10,064 bases of DNA from contig JAUWOV010000064.1 of assembly GCA_030611945.1 (NCBI GenBank), forward strand, positions 1 to 10,064, written 5' to 3'. A model generated the notes under the pieces. That model worked only from the letters and a program-made list of their open reading frames with translations, ran no database searches and had not been told where the DNA came from. How positions within the stretch are numbered: position 1 is the first letter of the stretch; each line of letters begins with the position of its first letter. The position numbers were made by a program, and so were the translations under genes. Shown here one piece after another: positions 2,067 to 10,064 of the stretch. Source of the stretch: a bacterium. GTDB taxonomy: Bacteria > JAHJDO01.

Positions 2067-2112
2067 AGGTTATTACCTAAACGTCACCGTCGATTTCTTC
2101 AAATATTTTCTT

Positions 2113-2763
2113 TTAATCTTCATCTGTTGTTTCTCTAGGCTTACCTAACCGATAATCATTAGTATCTATACAAGAATCATAAGTTTGTCTATCAATTTTA
2201 ATCCAATCAGTCTTATTTATACCTCTCTTATTTTTACATGTAGGGCTTACAGGAAAAGTTGAAGCTATTTTAATCCAGCGTTTTTGTGCAATAGCAATTT
2301 CTCTTATTTCTTCTGCAACTTCGCTTAAATCTTGATCTTGGCTAAATATAATCGCTATATCATAAACTTTTTCACGAGCAAGCCTAATAATATCAAGAGC
2401 TATACGGACATCTACTCCTTTCTCGTGTCCCACAAGAGTGGTATAAAGTTTATTGCATGATGGACATTCCATTTTTTGATTGTGGTATCTCAAATTTCTT
2501 GAAAAAAGCTTAATACCAGCCCGCCCCATAGAACTTAATTTTTTACTCCAGAAATTATGCCAGAAACCATTGTCTTGTGAATCTGGTATCCCCGTATAGA
2601 AATATATATCACCCAAAGTCCATCCTTGCATTGAACATATCCTTTCAGATAATAATTTAATATCATAGTTCGGAAAGGAATACCCAAAAGCTTCCTTTAC
2701 TGCATGAAATAAATCTTGCCCACCAGCAAATACAAAAGCCCTTTTTTTAGATGGTTTTATCAT
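2113..2763 (-). CDS. NYN-domain (PIN-like/LabA-type) protein with altered first active-site motif
   Basis: A 216-residue cytoplasmic protein with the NYN fold, a PIN-like nuclease fold thought to act on RNA; no cellular role is established. Family features are clear: FGYSFPNYD near residues 27-34, FYTGIPD (55-61), FWHNFW (67-72), a KGVDVRIALDIIRLA block (115-129; D118, D124), FSQDQDLSEVAEEIR (140-154; D143, D145), RWIKIAS (162-168) and a C-terminal RGINKTDWIKID. The N-terminal motif, which I remember as FVDGQNLF in this family, reads FAGGQDLF here (12-19): the first acidic residue is Gly and the Asn is Asp. A CPSC pair at 100-103 might be half of a metal site. The remaining acidic residues are present, so activity may be changed rather than lost. 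The gene stands divergent from a small XRE regulator, has its own promoter and a hairpin-bearing leader, and shows no strong Shine-Dalgarno sequence. The fold is secure; function is unknown. Confidence 0.85.
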   Translation of the reverse strand: MIKPSKKRAFVFAGGQDLFHAVKEAFGYSFPNYDIKLLSERICSMQGWTLGDIYFYTGIPDSQDNGFWHNFWSKKLSSMGRAGIKLFSRNLRYHNQKMECPSCNKLYTTLVGHEKGVDVRIALDIIRLAREKVYDIAIIFSQDQDLSEVAEEIREIAIAQKRWIKIASTFPVSPTCKNKRGINKTDWIKIDRQTYDSCIDTNDYRLGKPRETTDED

Positions 2764-2793
2764 TTCTTAAGATATAAGCCTATAAATGAATAA

Positions 2794-2827
2794 CCCCGCT
2801 TGAGCCTTTTCAGGAAATCAAGCGGGG
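2794..2827 (-). other. GC-rich hairpin in the leader of the NYN mRNA
   Basis: A perfect 10-bp inverted repeat, CCCCGCTTGA (2794-2803) and TCAAGCGGGG (2818-2827), with a 14-nt loop. It stands out in an AT-rich intergenic region. From the predicted minus-strand promoter it would begin about 7 nt from the 5' end of the NYN transcript and end about 30 nt before the start codon. On the minus strand it is followed by the moderately T-rich TTATTCATTTAT, not a clean U-run. It could stabilise the 5' end, act as an attenuator, or bind a protein. The inverted repeat is directly seen; the role is inferred. Confidence 0.6.
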
Positions 2828-2840
2828 AGCAAGTATCATC

Positions 2841-2868
2841 ACTATAACACAAGATTGCAGAGTGTCAA
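2841..2868 (-). promoter_or_regulatory. Sigma-70-type promoter for the NYN gene
   Basis: On the minus strand, TTGACA (2868-2863) is separated by 16 nt from TATAGT (2846-2841), a near-consensus housekeeping promoter. The expected transcription start is about 2834, giving a leader of about 70 nt that begins almost at the GC-rich hairpin and runs to the NYN start at 2763. Confidence 0.65.
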
Positions 2869-3036
2869 TCACTTTTTTCAATCCTTTTCCCCCAAAATAC
2901 TACCATTAAAACTAATTTAGGAACGAAACAATCAGTATATCTAAATTAATTATAGAATATTCCATGTATGCTAGCAAAAAGCACAACCCAGTTCAAGGTG
3001 CAAATTTCAGAAGTATTTGTATGTAGTATAAAAATT

Positions 3037-3255
3037 ATGAGAGACGTAAATATTGCTTTGAGATTGGCTAAAAGGATACGAAATTTAAGACAGGAGTATA
3101 ATTATACACAGCAAAAGCTATCTGAAATGGCAGATATTGACTACAAACATATTCAGCTTTTAGAAAGCAAAAAACCTCCATATGTGAAATTAGATACACT
3201 TGAAAAACTCGCCAAAGCATTCAAAATAAAACCTTCAAAATTACTAGAGTTTTAA
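3037..3255 (+). CDS. Small XRE-family HTH transcriptional regulator
   Basis: A 72-residue protein that is essentially one Cro/C1-type helix-turn-helix domain, expected to bind DNA as a dimer. The five-helix pattern is clear: LAKRIRNLRQEY (helix 1), TQQKLSEMA (helix 2), DYKHIQLLES (recognition helix), KLDTLEKLAKAF (helix 4) and KIKPSKLLEF (helix 5). I chose the ATG at 3037 because it starts just before the domain. An in-frame ATG at 2968 would add 23 residues of unremarkable sequence. Neither start has a good Shine-Dalgarno sequence. It faces away from the NYN gene and precedes a toxin-antitoxin pair, so it may regulate one of these neighbours or itself. The palindrome GAATATTC at 2955-2962 is a possible but unproven operator. 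Such short solo XRE proteins are common in mobile or accessory DNA. Confidence 0.8.
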   Translation: MRDVNIALRLAKRIRNLRQEYNYTQQKLSEMADIDYKHIQLLESKKPPYVKLDTLEKLAKAFKIKPSKLLEF

Positions 3256-3269
3256 GATTTACGCTGGAT

Positions 3270-3342
3270 TGTCAAATCAAGCAGAAAAAACGAGATTGCT
3301 TCAGGATTTCATCCTTCGCAATGACTCGGTTGCGGCTTGACA
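3270..3342 (+). repeat. MITE-like/dispersed hairpin repeat
   Basis: A 73-bp unit is bounded by TGTCAA (3270-3275) and its inverted copy TTGACA (3337-3342). Inside is an imperfect palindrome: ATTGC (3295-3299), AGGAT (3303-3307), ATCCT (3311-3315) and GCAAT (3318-3322) around a TTC loop. Read on the minus strand the core has the form GTCATTGCGA...GAAGCAATCTC, which I remember as a hairpin repeat scattered between genes in many unrelated bacterial genomes. It lies directly upstream of the toxin-antitoxin promoter. Boundaries are approximate, and only one copy is visible in this window. Confidence 0.5.
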
Positions 3343-3348
3343 TTTTTA

Positions 3349-3377
3349 TTGACGTTTCAAGCAATTTTAGCTATAAT
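3349..3377 (+). promoter_or_regulatory. Sigma-70-type promoter of the toxin-antitoxin operon
   Basis: TTGACG (3349-3354) and TATAAT (3372-3377) are separated by exactly 17 nt, a near-perfect housekeeping promoter. The start site would be near 3384, giving a leader of about 53 nt to the antitoxin start. Type II antitoxins usually repress this kind of promoter; no clear operator palindrome is visible. Confidence 0.75.
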
Positions 3378-3406
3378 AACATTTAAAGTGCCAGTGAATT
3401 AATATT

Positions 3407-3433
3407 ATGCCAAATATTGCGGAGGAGGTGTAG
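3407..3433 (+). other. Possible 8-codon leader ORF containing the antitoxin Shine-Dalgarno
   Basis: ATG at 3407 opens a tiny frame encoding MPNIAEEV and stopping at TAG (3431-3433), three bases before the antitoxin ATG. Its GCG GAG GAG GTG codons are the strong Shine-Dalgarno stretch GGAGGAGGT (3421-3429) of the antitoxin. It lacks an obvious ribosome site of its own, so it may be chance. The antitoxin ribosome binding site itself is well supported. Confidence 0.25.
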
Positions 3434-3436
3434 AAA

Positions 3437-3625
3437 ATGCAGTCAATAACATTAAATATCAAAAATGACAAATTAGTAAACAAAGTTACTTGGCTTCTGG
3501 AGCATTTTAAAAATGATGGATTAGAAATTGTATCAAAAGAGGATATGGGCGACTTGAAACTATTGAAAGCTACAAGAAATGAAGATGCTATTTCTTTTGA
3601 TGAGTATATGAAAAATGAAGATTAG
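3437..3625 (+). CDS. Type II antitoxin, RelB-like
   Basis: A 62-residue acidic protein immediately upstream of a RelE-type toxin. It should neutralise the toxin by direct binding and probably help repress the operon. The N-terminal strand (SITLNIKNDKLVNKVTWLLEHF) resembles the short DNA-binding or dimerising part of small antitoxins. The acidic C-terminus (ISFDEYMKNED) has the usual toxin-wrapping character of RelB-like partners. A very strong Shine-Dalgarno sequence (GGAGGAGGT, about 7 nt before the ATG) is in keeping with the need for excess antitoxin. The last 11 nt overlap the toxin start, allowing translational coupling. The sequence alone is too short to assign to a named antitoxin family; the call rests largely on position, size and charge. 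Confidence 0.75.
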   Translation: MQSITLNIKNDKLVNKVTWLLEHFKNDGLEIVSKEDMGDLKLLKATRNEDAISFDEYMKNED

Positions 3626-3860
3626 TATTCGCAAAAGCGCTATTAAAGATTTAAAAAGGATTGATTGCAAGAGTAAAGAAAAAATTCATGCAAGAATTTT
3701 AGAATTGAACGATTTTCCAAATGTTCCAAATGTTAGAAAGTTGACAAGTTTTGAGTTTGCATATCGTTTTAGAGTAGGGGATTATAGAATCTTATTTGAT
3801 ATATTTGAGAGCACGATTCAGATAGGTAGGGTCTTGCATAGAAAAGATAGTTACAGATAA
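3615..3860 (+). CDS. RelE/ParE-superfamily toxin
   Basis: An 81-residue basic protein with the RelE/ParE fold. RelE-type members cut mRNA in the ribosomal A site; ParE members poison gyrase. The order is typical: an N-terminal strand (MKISIRKSAIKDLKRI), two helices with many lysines, the segment VRKLTSFEFAYRFRVGDYRILFDI (about 40-63) with R51, R53 and R58, and a C-terminal GRVLHRKDSYR with H75, R76, Y80 and R81. The R-V-G-D-Y-R-I core and the terminal HR..YR resemble RelE rather than ParE, so mRNA cleavage is the more likely activity. The ATG at 3615 overlaps the antitoxin by 11 nt. The gene is followed by a hairpin terminator. Superfamily membership is secure; target specificity is inferred. 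Confidence 0.88.
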   Translation: MKISIRKSAIKDLKRIDCKSKEKIHARILELNDFPNVPNVRKLTSFEFAYRFRVGDYRILFDIFESTIQIGRVLHRKDSYR

Positions 3861-3875
3861 GACTGTGAAGTGGTA

Positions 3876-3905
3876 GGACAGCCGCAAGGGCTGTCCCTGC
3901 TTTTT
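3876..3905 (+). terminator. Rho-independent terminator of the toxin-antitoxin operon
   Basis: GGACAGCC (3876-3883) and GGCTGTCC (3889-3896) form an 8-bp perfect stem with a 5-nt GCAAG loop, followed after CTGC by five T's (3901-3905). It begins 16 nt after the toxin stop codon. The T-run is short and offset by four bases, so the terminator may be leaky. A dispersed repeat is an alternative explanation for the hairpin. Confidence 0.65.
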
Positions 3906-3909
3906 GATG

Positions 3910-3938
3910 AATTCCAATACTGCTGACAAATTCCAATA
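3910..3938 (+). repeat. Short direct repeat ahead of the tmk promoter
   Basis: AATTCCAATA occurs twice, at 3910-3919 and 3929-3938, 19 bp apart. The second copy touches the presumed -35 element of the tmk promoter, so a regulator binding site is possible. A 10-bp repeat in AT-rich DNA could be chance. Confidence 0.35.
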
Positions 3939-3973: not shown

Positions 3974-4636
3974 ATGAAAAGAGGGCTTTTACTAACATTG
4001 GAGGGACCTGAGGGCAGTGGGAAATCCACGCATTCCAGGTTGCTTGCCGGTTATCTTATCCAGAAAAATATTCAGACTTATTGCACAAGAGAGCCGGGCA
4101 GTACAGCATTGGGAGAAAAAATGAGGCAATTACTGCTCTCTCCTTTGCACAAGAATATGTCAGCAAGAACCGAATTACTGCTATACGAAGCAGCGCGGGC
4201 GCAGCATGTTGATGAGATTATTATTCCTGCATTAAAGAAGAATGTTGCTGTGATCTGTGATCGTTTCTATGATGCTACATTTGCATATCAAGGATATGGA
4301 AGAAAAATAGATTTGAATATTGTAAAGCATATAAATGATTTTGCTGTAAACAAGGTAAAACCGGACTTGACAATCCTTTTGGATATTGACGTGAATATTG
4401 GATTGGAAAAATCTTCGCGCTTATCAAAGGATTCCTTTCCAAGAGGGGAGAGTGACAGGATTGAGCAGGAAGGTACTGAATTTCATAAAAGAGTGCGGGA
4501 AGGATATCTCAATCTTGCTCAAAGAGAGCCAGAGCGTATAAAAGTAGTTACAGTAGAAAGTGAAATCAGTAAGACACAGTTAGAAATCCAGAAGCATATA
4601 GATGGTTTATTGAGAAGAAATAATTATGTCGTTTAA
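3974..4636 (+). CDS. tmk: Thymidylate kinase
   Basis: A 220-residue cytoplasmic enzyme that phosphorylates dTMP to dTDP with ATP, an essential step to dTTP. The P-loop GPEGSGKST is at residues 11-19, the substrate motif TREPGST at 38-44, and the DRFYDATFAYQGYGR block at 96-110. A LID segment with several arginines (R149, R157, R162) lies at about 145-165. Length is normal for the family. The start is fixed by the family pattern, because MKRGLLLTLEGPEG begins exactly as other thymidylate kinases do. There is no Shine-Dalgarno sequence upstream and the -10 box ends only 9 nt before the ATG, suggesting leaderless translation. The stop overlaps the holB start by 11 nt. It heads a run of same-strand genes with no terminator visible before the right edge. 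Confidence 0.97.
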   Translation: MKRGLLLTLEGPEGSGKSTHSRLLAGYLIQKNIQTYCTREPGSTALGEKMRQLLLSPLHKNMSARTELLLYEAARAQHVDEIIIPALKKNVAVICDRFYDATFAYQGYGRKIDLNIVKHINDFAVNKVKPDLTILLDIDVNIGLEKSSRLSKDSFPRGESDRIEQEGTEFHKRVREGYLNLAQREPERIKVVTVESEISKTQLEIQKHIDGLLRRNNYVV

Positions 4637-5660
4637 TGATATTATTGGACAGGAAACAGCTGTAAAGCTTTTGCGAAATTCGTTGAAACATGGAAGAATT
4701 TCTCATGCTTATCTGTTCGTTGGTCCCAATGGAGTTGGCAAAAAGCTGGCAGCAATTAATCTTGCCAAAGCATTGAATTGCGAAGAGTCTGCTGAGATTT
4801 CTTGTGATAGATGCGTATGCTGCAAAAAAATAGACGCTTCTATACATCCGGATGTAAAATACATTTATCCAACAGGACCTTCTTTATCCATAACAATTGA
4901 TAATATTAGAGAATTAAGAACACAAATATCATTTAAAACATATGAAGGTAAGAAAAAAGCATATATTATTGCAGAAGCGGAAAATATGACTATTCAAGCC
5001 GCAAACTGCCTTTTAAAAACTTTGGAGGAGCCGCCTGAAAATTCCGTATTGATCTTAACCGCTGCAGACTCGCATTCACTTTTGCAGACCATAGTTTCGC
5101 GCTGCCAGGTAGTTCCTTTTAACAGGATAGAGCTTCATAGGATTGAGAGTTTTTTAGTAAAACATCATGGAGTGGACAAATCTCTTGCTCATTTCATAGC
5201 CAATTTATCTCAAGGCAGTTTAGGAGAGGCGCTTAAGTTGAAGGATGATGCACAAATACCTCTTGTAAAGGCAAAATTAATGGATATTCTTAGCAGGTTG
5301 AAGAATGAAGATGTGATTACTCTTGTCGGGGAGTTTAATAAGGAAGTGTTTAACAATGATAATGCTGAGCGAGGCAGAGATGTTGCGGAATATAGAAACA
5401 AGCTGCATATGAGCTTAGACATGCTTACAACATGCCTCAGAGATATTGCGATCTTAAAACAGGCTGGAGAACAAGTTCCTCTTATTAACTTGGATATTGA
5501 AGGAGAGCTTAAACAACTGGAAAATAAGTTCTCTCTGTCTCAGATTGATGGTTTTTTGAACACAGTTACTGATATGAAGATGCATATAAAGAACAACGTC
5601 AGTCCTCAACTTATTTTAGAGAGGTTGTTTTTAGATATGCAGGGAAATGCAGATGCATAA
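4626..5660 (+). CDS. holB: DNA polymerase III delta-prime subunit (clamp loader)
   Basis: A 344-residue AAA+ protein of the clamp-loader complex, which opens the sliding clamp and places it on primed DNA. The start IIGQE followed by ISHAYLFVGPNGVGKK (Walker A at 33-40, with Lys in place of the usual final Ser/Thr) is typical. Four zinc-ligand cysteines follow (C52, C60, C63, C66), then the degenerate Walker B region YIIAEAENM (113-121), the CLLKTLEEPPE helix (128-138) and the SRC sensor motif (158-160). The non-consensus ATPase residues fit delta-prime rather than the DnaX motor subunit. The remaining residues form the helical collar domain. It overlaps tmk by 11 nt and ricT by about 8 nt, an arrangement that suggests coupled translation; GAGAAG upstream is a plausible ribosome site. 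Confidence 0.95.
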   Translation: MSFNDIIGQETAVKLLRNSLKHGRISHAYLFVGPNGVGKKLAAINLAKALNCEESAEISCDRCVCCKKIDASIHPDVKYIYPTGPSLSITIDNIRELRTQISFKTYEGKKKAYIIAEAENMTIQAANCLLKTLEEPPENSVLILTAADSHSLLQTIVSRCQVVPFNRIELHRIESFLVKHHGVDKSLAHFIANLSQGSLGEALKLKDDAQIPLVKAKLMDILSRLKNEDVITLVGEFNKEVFNNDNAERGRDVAEYRNKLHMSLDMLTTCLRDIAILKQAGEQVPLINLDIEGELKQLENKFSLSQIDGFLNTVTDMKMHIKNNVSPQLILERLFLDMQGNADA

Positions 5661-6432
5661 AATAACCCGGGTTAGGATTTGCAAAGGCAGAACACTATGG
5701 CTTGATATTGGCAACACTGCTGCCAAGTATAACGATTACTGTCTAATAGAAGCGGATGGCGACAAATATTACGCTAAAATTGTATCAGGCATACAAGAGG
5801 TGGCTGATTGTATATGCTCAAAAGAGAGAGGACAGATCATTAGAGTTGCAATAGAGAGTGATATAAGTCAGATACAGGATATATCCAAACGAGAAAAAAA
5901 GTCATTAGCAATATGTTTAGAAAAAGCAGCCAAACATGATCTTCCAATTAGAGTTATAGATGCAAAATACACACATGAGGGAAGTAAAATAATATTTCAC
6001 TTTATGGCAGACAATAGAGTGGATTTTAGAGAACTGTTAAAAGACATTGAACGTACATTAAAAACAAGAGTGGAATTAAGGCAAATAGGCGTGCGAGATA
6101 GAGCGAAAATTGTTGCAGGATATGGGCATTGCGGGAGGGTTCTTTGCTGCGCAAGTTTCATTAGGGAGTTTCAGACAGTTACTATTCAAAATGCCAAATC
6201 TCAGAATTTCAACATGGATCCTTCAAAAATATCTGGTTTATGCGGCCGCTTGATGTGCTGCCTGAGATATGAATCAAACACGTATCAGGAGATGAGAAAA
6301 TCTTTTCCTGAAATAGATGCAACAATAGATACAGAACATGGGCAGGGGAAGGTAGTTGATTTAAATATACTCAAAGGCAGTGTTACTGTGGAATTGGATG
6401 ATGGTAAAAAACACGAACATAAGATAAAATAG
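5653..6432 (+). CDS. ricT: PSP1-domain regulatory iron-sulfur protein RicT (YaaT)
   Basis: A protein of about 259 residues. In Bacillus subtilis RicT (YaaT) forms an Fe-S complex with RicA and RicF that stimulates RNase Y-dependent RNA maturation and affects sporulation and competence. Two conserved cysteine clusters characteristic of the PSP1 domain are visible: CGRVLCC (C160, C165, C166) and CGRLMCC (C197, C202, C203), followed by LRYE. The mid-domain DFRELLKDIERTLKTRVELRQIGVRD segment also matches the family. I chose the ATG at 5653 because the Shine-Dalgarno AGGGA (5641-5645) is 7 nt away; the ATG at 5647 would be only 1 nt from it. It overlaps holB and follows the common tmk-holB-ricT order. 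Whether RicA/RicF partners exist here cannot be seen. Confidence 0.92.
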   Translation: MHKITRVRICKGRTLWLDIGNTAAKYNDYCLIEADGDKYYAKIVSGIQEVADCICSKERGQIIRVAIESDISQIQDISKREKKSLAICLEKAAKHDLPIRVIDAKYTHEGSKIIFHFMADNRVDFRELLKDIERTLKTRVELRQIGVRDRAKIVAGYGHCGRVLCCASFIREFQTVTIQNAKSQNFNMDPSKISGLCGRLMCCLRYESNTYQEMRKSFPEIDATIDTEHGQGKVVDLNILKGSVTVELDDGKKHEHKIK

Positions 6433-6453: not shown

Positions 6454-7215
6454 ATGAAGATTTTTGGTATTGGAATGCATCCTGATGACATAGAATTTAT
6501 TATGGCTGGAACTCTTGCTCTGCTGAAGAAAAAAGGGCATAAGATAACCATTGCAACTGTAGGTTCAGGGGATATGGGATCTGTTGAGTATGTTCCGGCA
6601 GACTTGAGCAGAAAACGGTATTCGGAAGCTAAGGCATCAGCAGAACTGCTTGGAGCCGAATATATTAGCTGCGGTATATCCTGTCTGCATGTTGTATTTG
6701 ATAATCCTACAAGATTTATGGTTACAGAAATGGTACGGAAAATAGACCCTGACATTGTTATTACCATGTCTCCTCAGGATTATATGAAAGATCATGAGAT
6801 AACTGCTGATCTGGTGTGGGATGCGTGTTTCAATGCGTCGCTTCCCAATTATCATACTGGTTTGGCGAATCCAGCAAAAGCAACGTCCAAGATTCCATAT
6901 CTATACTATGGAGACCCCGTTGAATTTAAGGATAGATTCGGCAATTCTATACATCCTGAATTTTATGTGGATATTAAAGATGTAATGGAAATAAAAACAA
7001 GTATGTTAAAGAAACATGAAAGTCAACGCTCATGGCTAAAAAGACAGCATGGCATGGACAAATATACAGAGACTATGAAGGAGCTTTCAGGCAGAAGAGG
7101 AAAAGAAATCGGTATAGAATACGCCGAAGGATTCAGACAGCATAAAGGGCATGCATTTTCTCAGGATAACGTCTTAGAGAAGCTGTTAAAGAACAAGGTT
7201 AAATATAAAAAATAA
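6454..7215 (+). CDS. PIG-L/LmbE-family zinc-dependent N-deacetylase
   Basis: A 253-residue cytoplasmic protein of the PIG-L (LmbE) fold, whose members remove N-acetyl groups from sugars or sugar conjugates (for example MshB and BshB). The zinc motif MHPDDIE lies at residues 8-14, with H9 and D12 as likely ligands and D11 as likely base. A second motif, DYMKDH (109-114), supplies H114, the third ligand. The intervening TVGSGDMGS (35-43) and the RYSEAKASAELLGAEY helix (55-70) are also typical. The GGAGGG Shine-Dalgarno (6439-6444), 9 nt before the ATG, supports the start. The gene starts 21 nt after ricT and stands 12 nt before a NagB-like gene, with a FGGY kinase next. This context points to amino-sugar catabolism rather than thiol synthesis. 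The natural substrate is unknown. Confidence 0.88.
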   Translation: MKIFGIGMHPDDIEFIMAGTLALLKKKGHKITIATVGSGDMGSVEYVPADLSRKRYSEAKASAELLGAEYISCGISCLHVVFDNPTRFMVTEMVRKIDPDIVITMSPQDYMKDHEITADLVWDACFNASLPNYHTGLANPAKATSKIPYLYYGDPVEFKDRFGNSIHPEFYVDIKDVMEIKTSMLKKHESQRSWLKRQHGMDKYTETMKELSGRRGKEIGIEYAEGFRQHKGHAFSQDNVLEKLLKNKVKYKK

Positions 7216-7227
7216 GGAGTAATAATT

Positions 7228-8178
7228 ATGGATTTAATGAGTACAATTAAAGGATCTTTGTTGGAAAATTTCTTTCCGCAGGGATGGGATATGGAGAAGC
7301 TGGATAAATGCTGCGATAATTCCCCAGAGTCGGTTACTGAGCGTCAGGATTGGTGGAACAAAGGATTTGAACCTGTTCCATGCGAAACACTGAGTGATTT
7401 TGATACTATGATGGGGCATGAAATAGCTATAGAGATTAAAAGGGCGAGAGATGATGGCAGGAAGATAGCGTTTATATTGCCTGTTGGTCCTATGGGAATG
7501 TATAAATGGGCTGTTTATTTTCTAAAAGAATGGAATGTGGATTGTAAACACGTTTATGGATTCAATATGGATGAATGGAGCGATAAAGACGGAAGTACAT
7601 TGCCTTCTGATAATACAGGGGCTTTTCAAAATGCAATGGAACAAGCTTTCTATGGACCGCTCGGCGGTATGACTATTCCAAAAGAACAACGACATTTTGC
7701 TACAAAGGAGATGCTTCCCACATATCCTGAGAAGATAGGAGAACTCAAGGCAGAAGGAGCGAAGCTTGTAGTTGTCTTTGGTATTGGAAGAGTGTTTCAT
7801 ATTGCTTTTTGGGAACCGCATTTTGCCGGCGAATTTTCAGGAGAGAAGGAATGGAAGAAACAGTGCTACAGACTGGGAGCAAAACTGCATCCTCTTACCA
7901 TAGAACAGAATGCAGTAACCAGTTTCAAGAGCAGGACAACACTGGTTCCATGTTTTGCCAATACAATTGGTCCGGGGCTATTTCTTAAAGCTGATAAAAT
8001 AATCGGCGGATGTGACGGGACACTGGGAAGGGGAATGATGTGGCAGGGGTTATCTCTCTGGGTTACTTTAAGACACGGACCAAACATCTGGATCCCTTCC
8101 AGCTTTATGCCTACTTTGGCTGGCAAGCTTTTCTTCCTAAAAGAGCTTGCGGGTCCATTAGTAGCAGACTGTAATTAA
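7228..8178 (+). CDS. NagB-like sugar-phosphate isomerase/deaminase homologue
   Basis: A 316-residue protein of the glucosamine-6-phosphate deaminase/isomerase superfamily, longer than E. coli NagB (266). NMDEW (113-117) holds D115, equivalent to catalytic D72, after an [11 protein letters not shown] phosphate-loop-like segment (83-93). The active-site block reads [13 protein letters not shown] (185-197). H191 and E196 match NagB H143 and E148, but V189 sits where NagB has catalytic D141. Other family-like parts are [19 protein letters not shown] (246-264). Classic NagB deamination of glucosamine-6-phosphate may therefore be altered, and another sugar phosphate or an isomerase-only reaction is possible. 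The Shine-Dalgarno AAGGAG overlaps the stop of the PIG-L gene, 8 nt before the ATG, so the two are coupled. Superfamily membership is strong; the reaction is inferred. Confidence 0.8.
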
Positions 8179-8229
8179 CTAAATAACTTCAGCGTATATT
8201 ATAGATTGTATTAAAAGAGGATAGTAACA

Positions 8230-9738
8230 ATGGAATATGTTATTGGAATTGATATAGGCACAACAGGTGTAAAAACTCTTTTATGCAATAACAATGGGAA
8301 AATAATATCCAGTTCCCTTAATGAATATCCTCTATCCCATCTAAAACCGGGCTGGGCGGAACAGGATCCGGATGACTGGTGGAAAGCTGCAATAGAATCT
8401 ATCAGATCCGTCATGAATGATACAAACATCAATAGAGAAGATGTTAAAGCAGTAGGATTAACAGGGCAGATGCACGGCGCTGTTTTTCTGGATGGCAATA
8501 ATAATGTACTTCGGCCTGCGATACTCTGGTGTGATCAGAGAACAAGTTCTGAATGCGATGACATAAATAGAATTATTGGAAAAGAAAATCTAATTATACT
8601 TACCTCTAATCCAGCTCTTACCGGTTTTACTGCTCCAAAAATCCTCTGGGTCAGGAAAAATGAACCTCGTATTTATGAGAAAACCAAAAAGATTTTGCTT
8701 CCAAAAGATTATATAAGATTCAGGTTAATCGGAGAATTTGCAAGCGATGTCTCAGATGCTTCAGGAACTTTATTGTTTGATGTGAAGAATAGGAAGTGGT
8801 CAGATGAAGTCTTAGAAAAGCTAAACATTGACAAAAATCTGTTGCCTGAAGTTTATGAGTCTACAGAAATCACAGGGACACTAACTAAAGACGCTTCCAA
8901 GCTTACCGGTTTGTCAACAGAAACAGCAGTTGTTGCCGGCGCTGGAGACCAGGCTGCAGGAGCAGTTGGATGCGGAATCGTAGAAGAAGGAATCATATCC
9001 TCAACAATAGGAACATCAGGTGTTGTTTTTGCATATACAGATAAAGTAAAAACCGACCCACTAGGCAGTGTTCACACATTCTGCCATGCAGTTCCTGGCA
9101 AGTGGCATGTTATGGGAGCAGTGCTTGCCGCCGGAGGATCTTTCAAATGGCTCAGGGATATGCTTGGAGAGGATTCATATCAGCCAATGACTGAACAGGC
9201 ATCAAAAGCTCCAGTAGGAAGTGAGGGACTTATTTTTCTTCCTTATCTTATGGGAGAGAGAACACCTCATGCTGACCCGGACGCAAAGGCAGTGTTTTTT
9301 GGAATCTCTCCACGACACACAAGAGCTTATATTATCCGTTCAGTAATGGAAGGAGTAAGTTTTGGATTAAGAGATTCATTAGAAATTATTAAGAAACTGG
9401 ACATTCCTGTATCTGAAATTCGGGCCTCCGGAGGCGGGGCAAAAAGCAAACTCTGGAAACAGATCCAGGCAGATGTTAATAAAGAATCGATTTATACAAT
9501 AAATGTTGATGAAGGACCAGCATTTGGCGCTGCATTACTTGCTATGGTTGGCGCGGGAATTTTCCCCTCTGTGCCTGAAGCCTGCAGGCAGACTATAAAA
9601 ACAATAGATAAAATTGAACCTGTTATAAAGAATACAAAAATCTATGATGAATACTATAAGCTATACAAAAAATTATATTCCTCTTTGAAAGATAATTTTA
9701 AACAATGCTCTGAATTAATCAGACAATTTAGGAAATAA
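8230..9738 (+). CDS. xylB: FGGY carbohydrate kinase, xylulokinase type
   Basis: A 502-residue cytoplasmic kinase, normal length for xylulokinase, which phosphorylates D-xylulose to xylulose-5-phosphate. The first ATPase motif GIDIGTTGVK is at 6-15. LTGQMHGAVFLD (77-88) carries the QMHG substrate motif of XylB, and ILWCDQRT lies at 98-105. GAGDQAAGAVG (237-247) contains the catalytic base D240. YLMGERTPHADPDAKAVFFG (339-358) and the FGGY signature-like SGGGAKS (400-406) follow. Xylulokinase is the closest match, but FGGY kinases are specificity-labile and the neighbours are amino-sugar-like rather than xylose isomerase or a xylose transporter. The actual substrate may be another ketose made by the NagB-like enzyme. 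The Shine-Dalgarno AGAGG (8216-8220) is 9 nt before the ATG; the gap to the preceding gene is 51 nt. No terminator is evident before the tRNA. Confidence 0.9.
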   Translation: MEYVIGIDIGTTGVKTLLCNNNGKIISSSLNEYPLSHLKPGWAEQDPDDWWKAAIESIRSVMNDTNINREDVKAVGLTGQMHGAVFLDGNNNVLRPAILWCDQRTSSECDDINRIIGKENLIILTSNPALTGFTAPKILWVRKNEPRIYEKTKKILLPKDYIRFRLIGEFASDVSDASGTLLFDVKNRKWSDEVLEKLNIDKNLLPEVYESTEITGTLTKDASKLTGLSTETAVVAGAGDQAAGAVGCGIVEEGIISSTIGTSGVVFAYTDKVKTDPLGSVHTFCHAVPGKWHVMGAVLAAGGSFKWLRDMLGEDSYQPMTEQASKAPVGSEGLIFLPYLMGERTPHADPDAKAVFFGISPRHTRAYIIRSVMEGVSFGLRDSLEIIKKLDIPVSEIRASGGGAKSKLWKQIQADVNKESIYTINVDEGPAFGAALLAMVGAGIFPSVPEACRQTIKTIDKIEPVIKNTKIYDEYYKLYKKLYSSLKDNFKQCSELIRQFRK

Positions 9739-9764
9739 AATAAAAAATAAAAAATTAATGGGAT

Positions 9765-9770
9765 TATAAT
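9765..9770 (+). promoter_or_regulatory. Possible -10 box for tRNA-Leu and the RNase E/G gene
   Basis: TATAAT lies 16 nt before the first base of tRNA-Leu, giving a start site near 9777. No good -35 element is visible about 17 nt upstream (the stretch is nearly all A/T), so this is a weak call. Confidence 0.35.
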
Positions 9771-9786
9771 TCAACTACATATTTTT

Positions 9787-9872
9787 GCCGGAGTGGTGGA
9801 ACTGGCAGACGCGCCGGACTCAAAATCCGGTGGAGCTTAAACTCCGTGAGGGTTCAACTCCCTCCTCCGGCA
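9787..9872 (+). tRNA. tRNA-Leu (anticodon CAA)
   Basis: An 86-nt class II tRNA reading UUG. The acceptor GCCGGAG pairs with CTCCGGC. The anticodon stem CCGGA/TCCGG encloses CTCAAAA, with CAA at positions 34-36. A long variable arm (GGAG/CTCC around CTTAAA) is present, and the T arm is GAGGG/CCCTC with a normal TTCAACT loop. The discriminator is A, as expected for tRNA-Leu, and CCA is not encoded. Confidence 0.97.
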
Positions 9873-9897
9873 CTAAACAAACATTTAGGGGAATATA

Positions 9898-10064
9898 GTG
9901 AAAAAGGAATTGATTATAAGCGTAGACGCTTATGAAGTAAGGACAGCGTTATTAGAAGAAGGTGTGTTAGCGGAGTTTGCTATTGAAAGAAAGGGAGAAA
10001 GACGCATTGCAGGCAATATTTACAAAGGCAAAGTAAAAGCTATATTGCCAGGCATACAATCTGC
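9898..10064 (+). CDS. rng: Ribonuclease E/G family, N-terminal part
   Basis: The first 55 residues of an RNase E/G endoribonuclease, which processes rRNA, tRNA precursors and mRNA; the gene continues past the right edge. The opening pattern (KKELIISVDAYEVRTALLEEG, then AEFAIERKGERRIAGNIYKGKV followed by LPGIQSA) is the family start and leads into the S1 RNA-binding domain. The GTG start has an AGGGGA Shine-Dalgarno (9887-9892) 5 nt upstream. The gene lies 25 nt after tRNA-Leu with no terminator between, so they are probably cotranscribed. Whether it is RNase E or RNase G cannot be decided without the C-terminus; I use rng because non-gammaproteobacterial members are usually short and G-like. 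Confidence 0.88.
   Translation, partial: MKKELIISVDAYEVRTALLEEGVLAEFAIERKGERRIAGNIYKGKVKAILPGIQS

Follow-up and report, generated by a model that had tools for sequence, protein, structure and literature searches.

Catalytic roles of Asp72, His143 and Glu148 are well established for NagB, the glucosamine-6-phosphate deaminase. His143 is catalytic and contacts Glu148 (PMC4008608). In the archaeal chitin pathway, a diacetylchitobiose deacetylase of family CE14 is paired with an exo-glucosaminidase (PMC9779004, PMC3575233); this deacetylase is of the PIG-L type and acts on N-acetylglucosamine compounds without a 6-phosphate. The association of PIG-L with NagB is itself already known, and in the NagB/PIG-L fusion proteins (NF002557, PRK02122) both domains are joined in one protein. 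Here, we analyzed a stretch of 10,064 nucleotides (GCA_030611945.1, contig JAUWOV010000064.1; "the window" in the following), in which the gene for a PIG-L/CE14-type N-deacetylase of 253 residues (6454..7215, forward strand) is followed on the same strand by that for a NagB-fold protein of 316 residues (7228..8178). Both open reading frames are complete, and it is the NagB-like partner, an uncharacterised member of a distinct and highly conserved family, that is unusual. A first-pass annotation of the window had combined this pair with the complete xylulokinase gene xylB (FGGY family, 502 residues, 8230..9738, forward strand) into a three-gene cassette. The three genes were confirmed to lie on the same strand, 12 and 51 nt apart, and to follow a housekeeping operon (tmk-holB-ricT, 3974..6432, forward strand, based on profile matches). 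Their families were confirmed as well, with PIG-L (PF02585) and XylB (TIGR01312) scoring above cut-offs and the middle protein recognized as NagB-like by its predicted fold. The cassette itself did not hold up. We consider it an even chance that the locus represents a conserved two-gene unit with a recent neighbour, in which PIG-L and then the NagB-like enzyme act on an amino sugar without the usual 6-phosphate.

The NagB-like protein showed no match in a Pfam search at 1e-3 and a weak one to the NagB model TIGR00502 (32.5 bits, E 5e-8), which did not reach the cut-off of 236.9. An AlphaFold2 model built from 56 family members (mean predicted local distance difference test score 88.7) has the NagB fold over residues 47-313, with Z scores of about 25 to solved NagB structures (PDB 1dea, 1ne7, 2bkv), namely 25.9 for 2bkv (232 aligned residues, 2.5 Å) and 25.2 for 1dea. 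Across 87 core sequences of the family, 94 of the 316 positions are invariant; D115, H191 and E196, the equivalents of Asp72, His143 and Glu148 of Escherichia coli NagB, are conserved in 87/87. In contrast to NagB, with which it shares 21-25% identity, the window protein carries a 46-residue N-terminal extension and has R-x-x-H in place of NDGH. Furthermore, the loop binding the substrate phosphate (GGT/GST in NagB) is two residues shorter (LPVG-PMG) in all NagB-like subfamilies, the column of NagB Arg172 is occupied by Ser232 in two independent alignments, and no lysine is found at the aligned position of Lys208, where the alignment is gapped. Judged by alignment and predicted fold, the 316-residue protein is thus a distinct relative of glucosamine-6-phosphate deaminase without its canonical phosphate-binding elements. 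Since the phosphate loop and Arg172 are not kept and Lys208 is not seen at its aligned place, its substrate probably lacks the usual 6-phosphate. The loss of Asp141 was dropped as a special mark of the family, because the true NagB of the same genome also has Asn there. Automated annotation would label the protein as glucosamine-6-phosphate deaminase-like or hypothetical, despite the missing phosphate elements.

The PIG-L protein exceeded the Pfam gathering score for PF02585 (71.5 bits, cut-off 28.2) and aligns to the solved structures of BC1534 (2ixd), a BshB1-type enzyme (6p2t) and archaeal diacetylchitobiose deacetylases. Its His-Asp-His metal triad consists of H9, D12 and H114, the columns of which match the ligands of 2ixd. 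The best NCBIfam model was that of the bacillithiol deacetylase BshB1 (TIGR04001), but the 108.6 bits obtained remain below the equivalog cut-off of 182.5, and no bacillithiol context was seen. The locus also differs from the archaeal chitin pathway, as the window has no glucosaminidase and the next enzyme is the NagB-like one. From the NF002557 fusions it differs in having two unfused proteins, of which the NagB-like one reaches 22.2 bits against a model cut-off of 384.

In order to see how far the pair extends, 84,980 species genomes were scanned, which returned 312 relatives of the NagB-like protein; locus counts refer to the best 80 of these. They belong to Omnitrophota, Planctomycetota, Bacillota, Acidobacteriota, Armatimonadota, Hydrogenedentota, Verrucomicrobiota, Spirochaetota, Chloroflexota and others. 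The flanks of the 80 loci (1.15 Mb) contained 27 PIG-L matches, all of them immediate neighbours of the NagB-like gene and none elsewhere, and at 21 of the 63 loci having both flanks an adjacent PIG-L gene lies on the same strand. PIG-L is located upstream in Firmicutes, Spirochaetes, Chloroflexi and the window, and downstream in Omnitrophota and Hydrogenedentota. As both gene orders occur, the adjacency points to functional linkage rather than inherited order, and it represents a genuine association beyond chance that spans phyla. The adjacency across distant lineages that the first-pass annotation had asked about therefore exists for PIG-L and the NagB-like gene in many phyla, but not with xylB as a third member. 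Among the carriers of the pair are cultivable Paenibacillus and Cohnella species, such as P. oceani, P. hemerocallicola and C. phaseoli, so that the substrate can be searched for in laboratory strains. Full-text literature searches returned nothing linking PIG-L or LmbE with NagB-type proteins, although their coverage is incomplete and this absence proves little.

Between phyla, the NagB-like protein shows 71-80% identity, a figure biased upward by the selection of best hits as loci. For comparison, EF-Tu of the window reached 66-77% in the same genomes wherever a near-full-length copy was found, holB-type matches 28-45%, and the adjacent PIG-L proteins 35-52%. By these sequence comparisons, conservation of the NagB-like protein across phyla appears roughly equal to that of EF-Tu. 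Recent horizontal transfer was rejected as the cause of the high identity: a quick tree of the family follows phyla, with 15 phylum label changes against a minimum of 12 and a mean of 42 after shuffling. Because the grouping by phylum is far above chance, we favour slow evolution over a recent spread. Viral contigs gave no match to the NagB-like protein, and plasmids gave only relatives of 26-28% identity, in Haloarcula and Vibrio.

Next, we consider the wider neighbourhood, counting partners within 6 kb at those 44 core loci whose flanks extend for 5 kb or more in both directions. PIG-L was found at 15/44, a particular type of Gfo/Idh oxidoreductase at 16/44 and a particular type of DegT aminotransferase at 9/44; all three accompany the NagB-like gene at four loci (L034, L039, L102, L178). 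The core family is separated from the second subfamily by a wide score gap (>600 versus <190 bits in a sample of 385 genomes). One locus of this second subfamily (L172) carries all four partner types together with a ROK regulator, a TIM-barrel gene and a set of ABC-transporter-like genes, the latter read from the sequence without a profile test. In the window's genus, DegT orthologs lie away from the locus (62% in G002, G003 and G004; contig-end fragments in the window's own genome, G000), and Gfo/Idh relatives (46-48%) are present in G001, G002 and G004, with none in G000 or G003.

Taken as an enzyme pathway, PIG-L would deacetylate an N-acetylated amino sugar, the ring of which the NagB-like enzyme would then open via H191 and E196; D115 would move the C2 proton to C1, and the step would either release ammonia and a ketose or end with isomerisation. 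In other lineages, the nearby Gfo/Idh oxidoreductase and DegT aminotransferase would handle another amino or keto position of the same sugar, and an FGGY kinase would sometimes capture the ketose. Known diamino-sugar biosynthesis employs such a dehydrogenase and aminotransferase; by analogy, the two enzymes could act on another carbon in the reverse direction. We tentatively propose, with less than even confidence, that the 316-residue family is a phosphate-independent amino-sugar isomerase/deaminase which, with PIG-L, Gfo/Idh and DegT, constitutes a hitherto undescribed route for handling an N-acetylated and perhaps diamino sugar, found in at least 10 phyla with a patchy distribution and yet EF-Tu-like conservation. 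The recurring partners turn this into a concrete four-enzyme hypothesis.

Several observations weigh against this interpretation. The alignment is gapped at NagB Lys208, and the loop at about 221-240, where Arg172 aligns, has low model confidence (55-76). The invariant basic residues R188, K234 and R236 could hold a phosphate or another anion in a different way, so that the lack of a phosphate is something we infer. About two thirds of the core loci have no adjacent PIG-L gene, and at 20/44 not one of the recurring partners lies within 6 kb. Finally, members of the Gfo/Idh and DegT families are numerous and of a generic kind, and PIG-L proteins also work in thiol and glycolipid pathways.

In the most serious alternative, the pair has a housekeeping role, such as turnover of the envelope or of glycoconjugates, or a pathway of the small-thiol kind, instead of sugar catabolism. 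The conservation at the level of EF-Tu, a tree that follows phyla, the place of the pair at the end of tmk-holB-ricT in the congeners and a PIG-L protein closest to BshB1-type deacetylases would all fit such a role. However, the core family occurs in about 10/380 genomes outside the genus (385-genome sample), which is patchy for a housekeeping function, and its genes cluster with sugar oxidoreductases and, in the second subfamily, with a sugar-type ABC transporter; the PIG-L score also falls short of the BshB1 cut-off. We therefore regard a housekeeping role as unlikely, although it deserves to be kept in view.

Turning to the third gene, XylB matched the xylulokinase model TIGR01312 with 616.5 bits, above the equivalog cut-off of 380.25, and E. 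coli XylB (PDB 2itm) is the closest solved structure. Its context differs from that of XylB elsewhere. The first-pass annotation had pointed out that the window has no xylose isomerase; a search of the whole G000 genome (91% complete) with TIGR02630 likewise gave no match at 1e-3 with positive controls. At the corresponding locus of G002 and G003, the NagB-like gene is directly followed by a tRNA-Leu and then by a gene which we take to be of the RNase E/G type, with no xylB between them. In the window, this tRNA-Leu(CAA) borders the xylB segment (9787..9873, forward strand, ARAGORN), and the 5' end of the RNase E/G-type gene, the next conserved neighbour (9898..10064, forward strand), shows 85% identity over 55 residues to an open reading frame of L023; this gene follows the tRNA-Leu in L103, L104 and L106. 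The G004 contig continues for only 0.9 kb beyond the NagB-like gene, and no xylB appears in that stretch. Upstream, the order RNB-SurA, tmk-holB-ricT-PIG-L-NagB-like is preserved in G002 and G004. Furthermore, contig C105 of the window's own assembly (L103 1-524) contains a xylB-free version of the junction with 87.6% identical DNA, covering the end of the NagB-like gene, the tRNA-Leu and the start of the RNase E/G-type gene, and probably stems from another strain or a contaminating relative in the bin. Hence, xylB is missing in 4/4 sequences compared across the junction (three congeneric genomes and C105).

A blastn comparison of the window with L103-L106, L116, L133 and L134 revealed no counterpart of positions 8186-9784 at this locus in the congeners. 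Positions 8215-9726 do find matches away from the locus, namely the xylB regions of G001, G002 and G004, with 81-90% DNA identity. The xylB orthologs there (84-90% identical) precede a gene for a PocR/AraC regulator. The window xylB is not beside this regulator, an ortholog of which was not found in G000. G003 keeps the PIG-L/NagB-like pair, and no xylB was detected in it. The 1.6 kb xylB segment is a recent local insertion behind the pair in this lineage, and the adjacency of the three genes is ordinary gene shuffling; recognizing it as such prevents a false pathway annotation. Delivery by a tRNA-directed element was considered and rejected, as no direct or inverted repeats surround xylB. A dedicated promoter or terminator between the NagB-like gene and xylB was likewise rejected, as matches there were at or only slightly above shuffled level.

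The idea of one dedicated pathway, leading from an N-acetylated amino sugar via the amino sugar and a ketose to a ketose phosphate, draws on the common strand, the short gaps and the compatible families. In one distant genus (L109 645-8560; L171 7263-15194), PIG-L, NagB-like and XylB genes (the latter 592 bits) also occur in a same-strand run, in the order PIG-L, NagB-like (second subfamily), DUF362-ferredoxin, nadA-like, an 888-residue gene and XylB, thus with three unrelated genes in between. FGGY kinases adjoin more distant NagB-like subfamilies in L110, L111 and L112. Against these cases stand the absence of an FGGY kinase within 6 kb at all 44 core loci (0/44), the congeners and C105 without xylB at the locus, its location elsewhere in three congeners, and G003 with the pair alone. 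The first-pass annotation had taken confinement of the trio to close relatives as a sign against a cassette, and our results go beyond this, since not even the closest relatives have the trio, nor do the 80 loci of the family. A dedicated three-gene pathway is hence distinctly improbable. Of the proposed sequence of reactions, deacetylation and isomerisation/deamination remain reasonable from the pair; in some relatives a kinase could plausibly act next, without being a constant member of the set. As a separate observation, the NagB-like genes of L111 and L112 form a third subfamily that clusters with an FGGY kinase and Gfo/Idh, in L112 also with a gene of the creatininase family. At both loci, the sequence hints at a lyxose-isomerase-like cupin.

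An assembly artefact could also place xylB behind the pair, given that the metagenome bin is fragmented (contamination 3%) and that the junction is present in another version on C105. However, xylB lies within a single contig (C32), flanked by DNA matching the locus at 7961-8185 as well as at 9785-10064; two misjoins would be needed to produce this, which makes the explanation very improbable. A non-enzymatic role of the NagB-like protein, as a sensor that binds sugars or as a scaffold, might be suggested by the same fold in DeoR/SorC-type effector domains (Z about 10-11) and by the missing phosphate-binding elements, but is hardly credible in view of its invariant catalytic equivalents, the lack of a DNA-binding domain and best structural matches that are enzymes.

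The conserved pair with its recent xylB neighbour is embedded in a genome with further amino-sugar genes. A true NagB is encoded on contig C111 of G000 (316 bits, above cut-off), so the NagB-like gene is not merely its replacement. On contig C81 (L169 895-3282), we found a 795-residue fusion of a NagB-type part and a subsequent PIG-L-like part with an HHDD motif, scoring 196.9 bits against NF002557 and thus below the cut-off of 384. A NagB-like gene on contig C48 sits between class II aldolase-like and PfkB-like genes. With these three genes present, the PIG-L/NagB-like pair is not the only amino-sugar route of this genome.

Some further observations concern the family in other genomes and the remainder of the window. 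In Omnitrophota-like genomes (L025, L026, L027, L036 and L057), the NagB-like gene is the last of a conserved series that includes genes for GH4 and class II fructose-bisphosphate aldolase, and three more genes of this series read like aldolase, threonine synthase and phosphoglycerate mutase (a sequence impression only). In G353:C137 (L177), the core NagB-like gene is split into two open reading frame pieces about 0.9 kb apart, followed by a PIG-L gene, indicating a pseudogene or an interrupted gene. A second segment of the window missing from the congeners, at 2070-3926, lies beside a tRNA-Arg, so that tRNA genes border both strain-specific insertions. It encodes an NYN-domain protein, a Cro/C1-type helix-turn-helix protein and a ParE-type toxin, the latter two of which possibly form a toxin-antitoxin pair.

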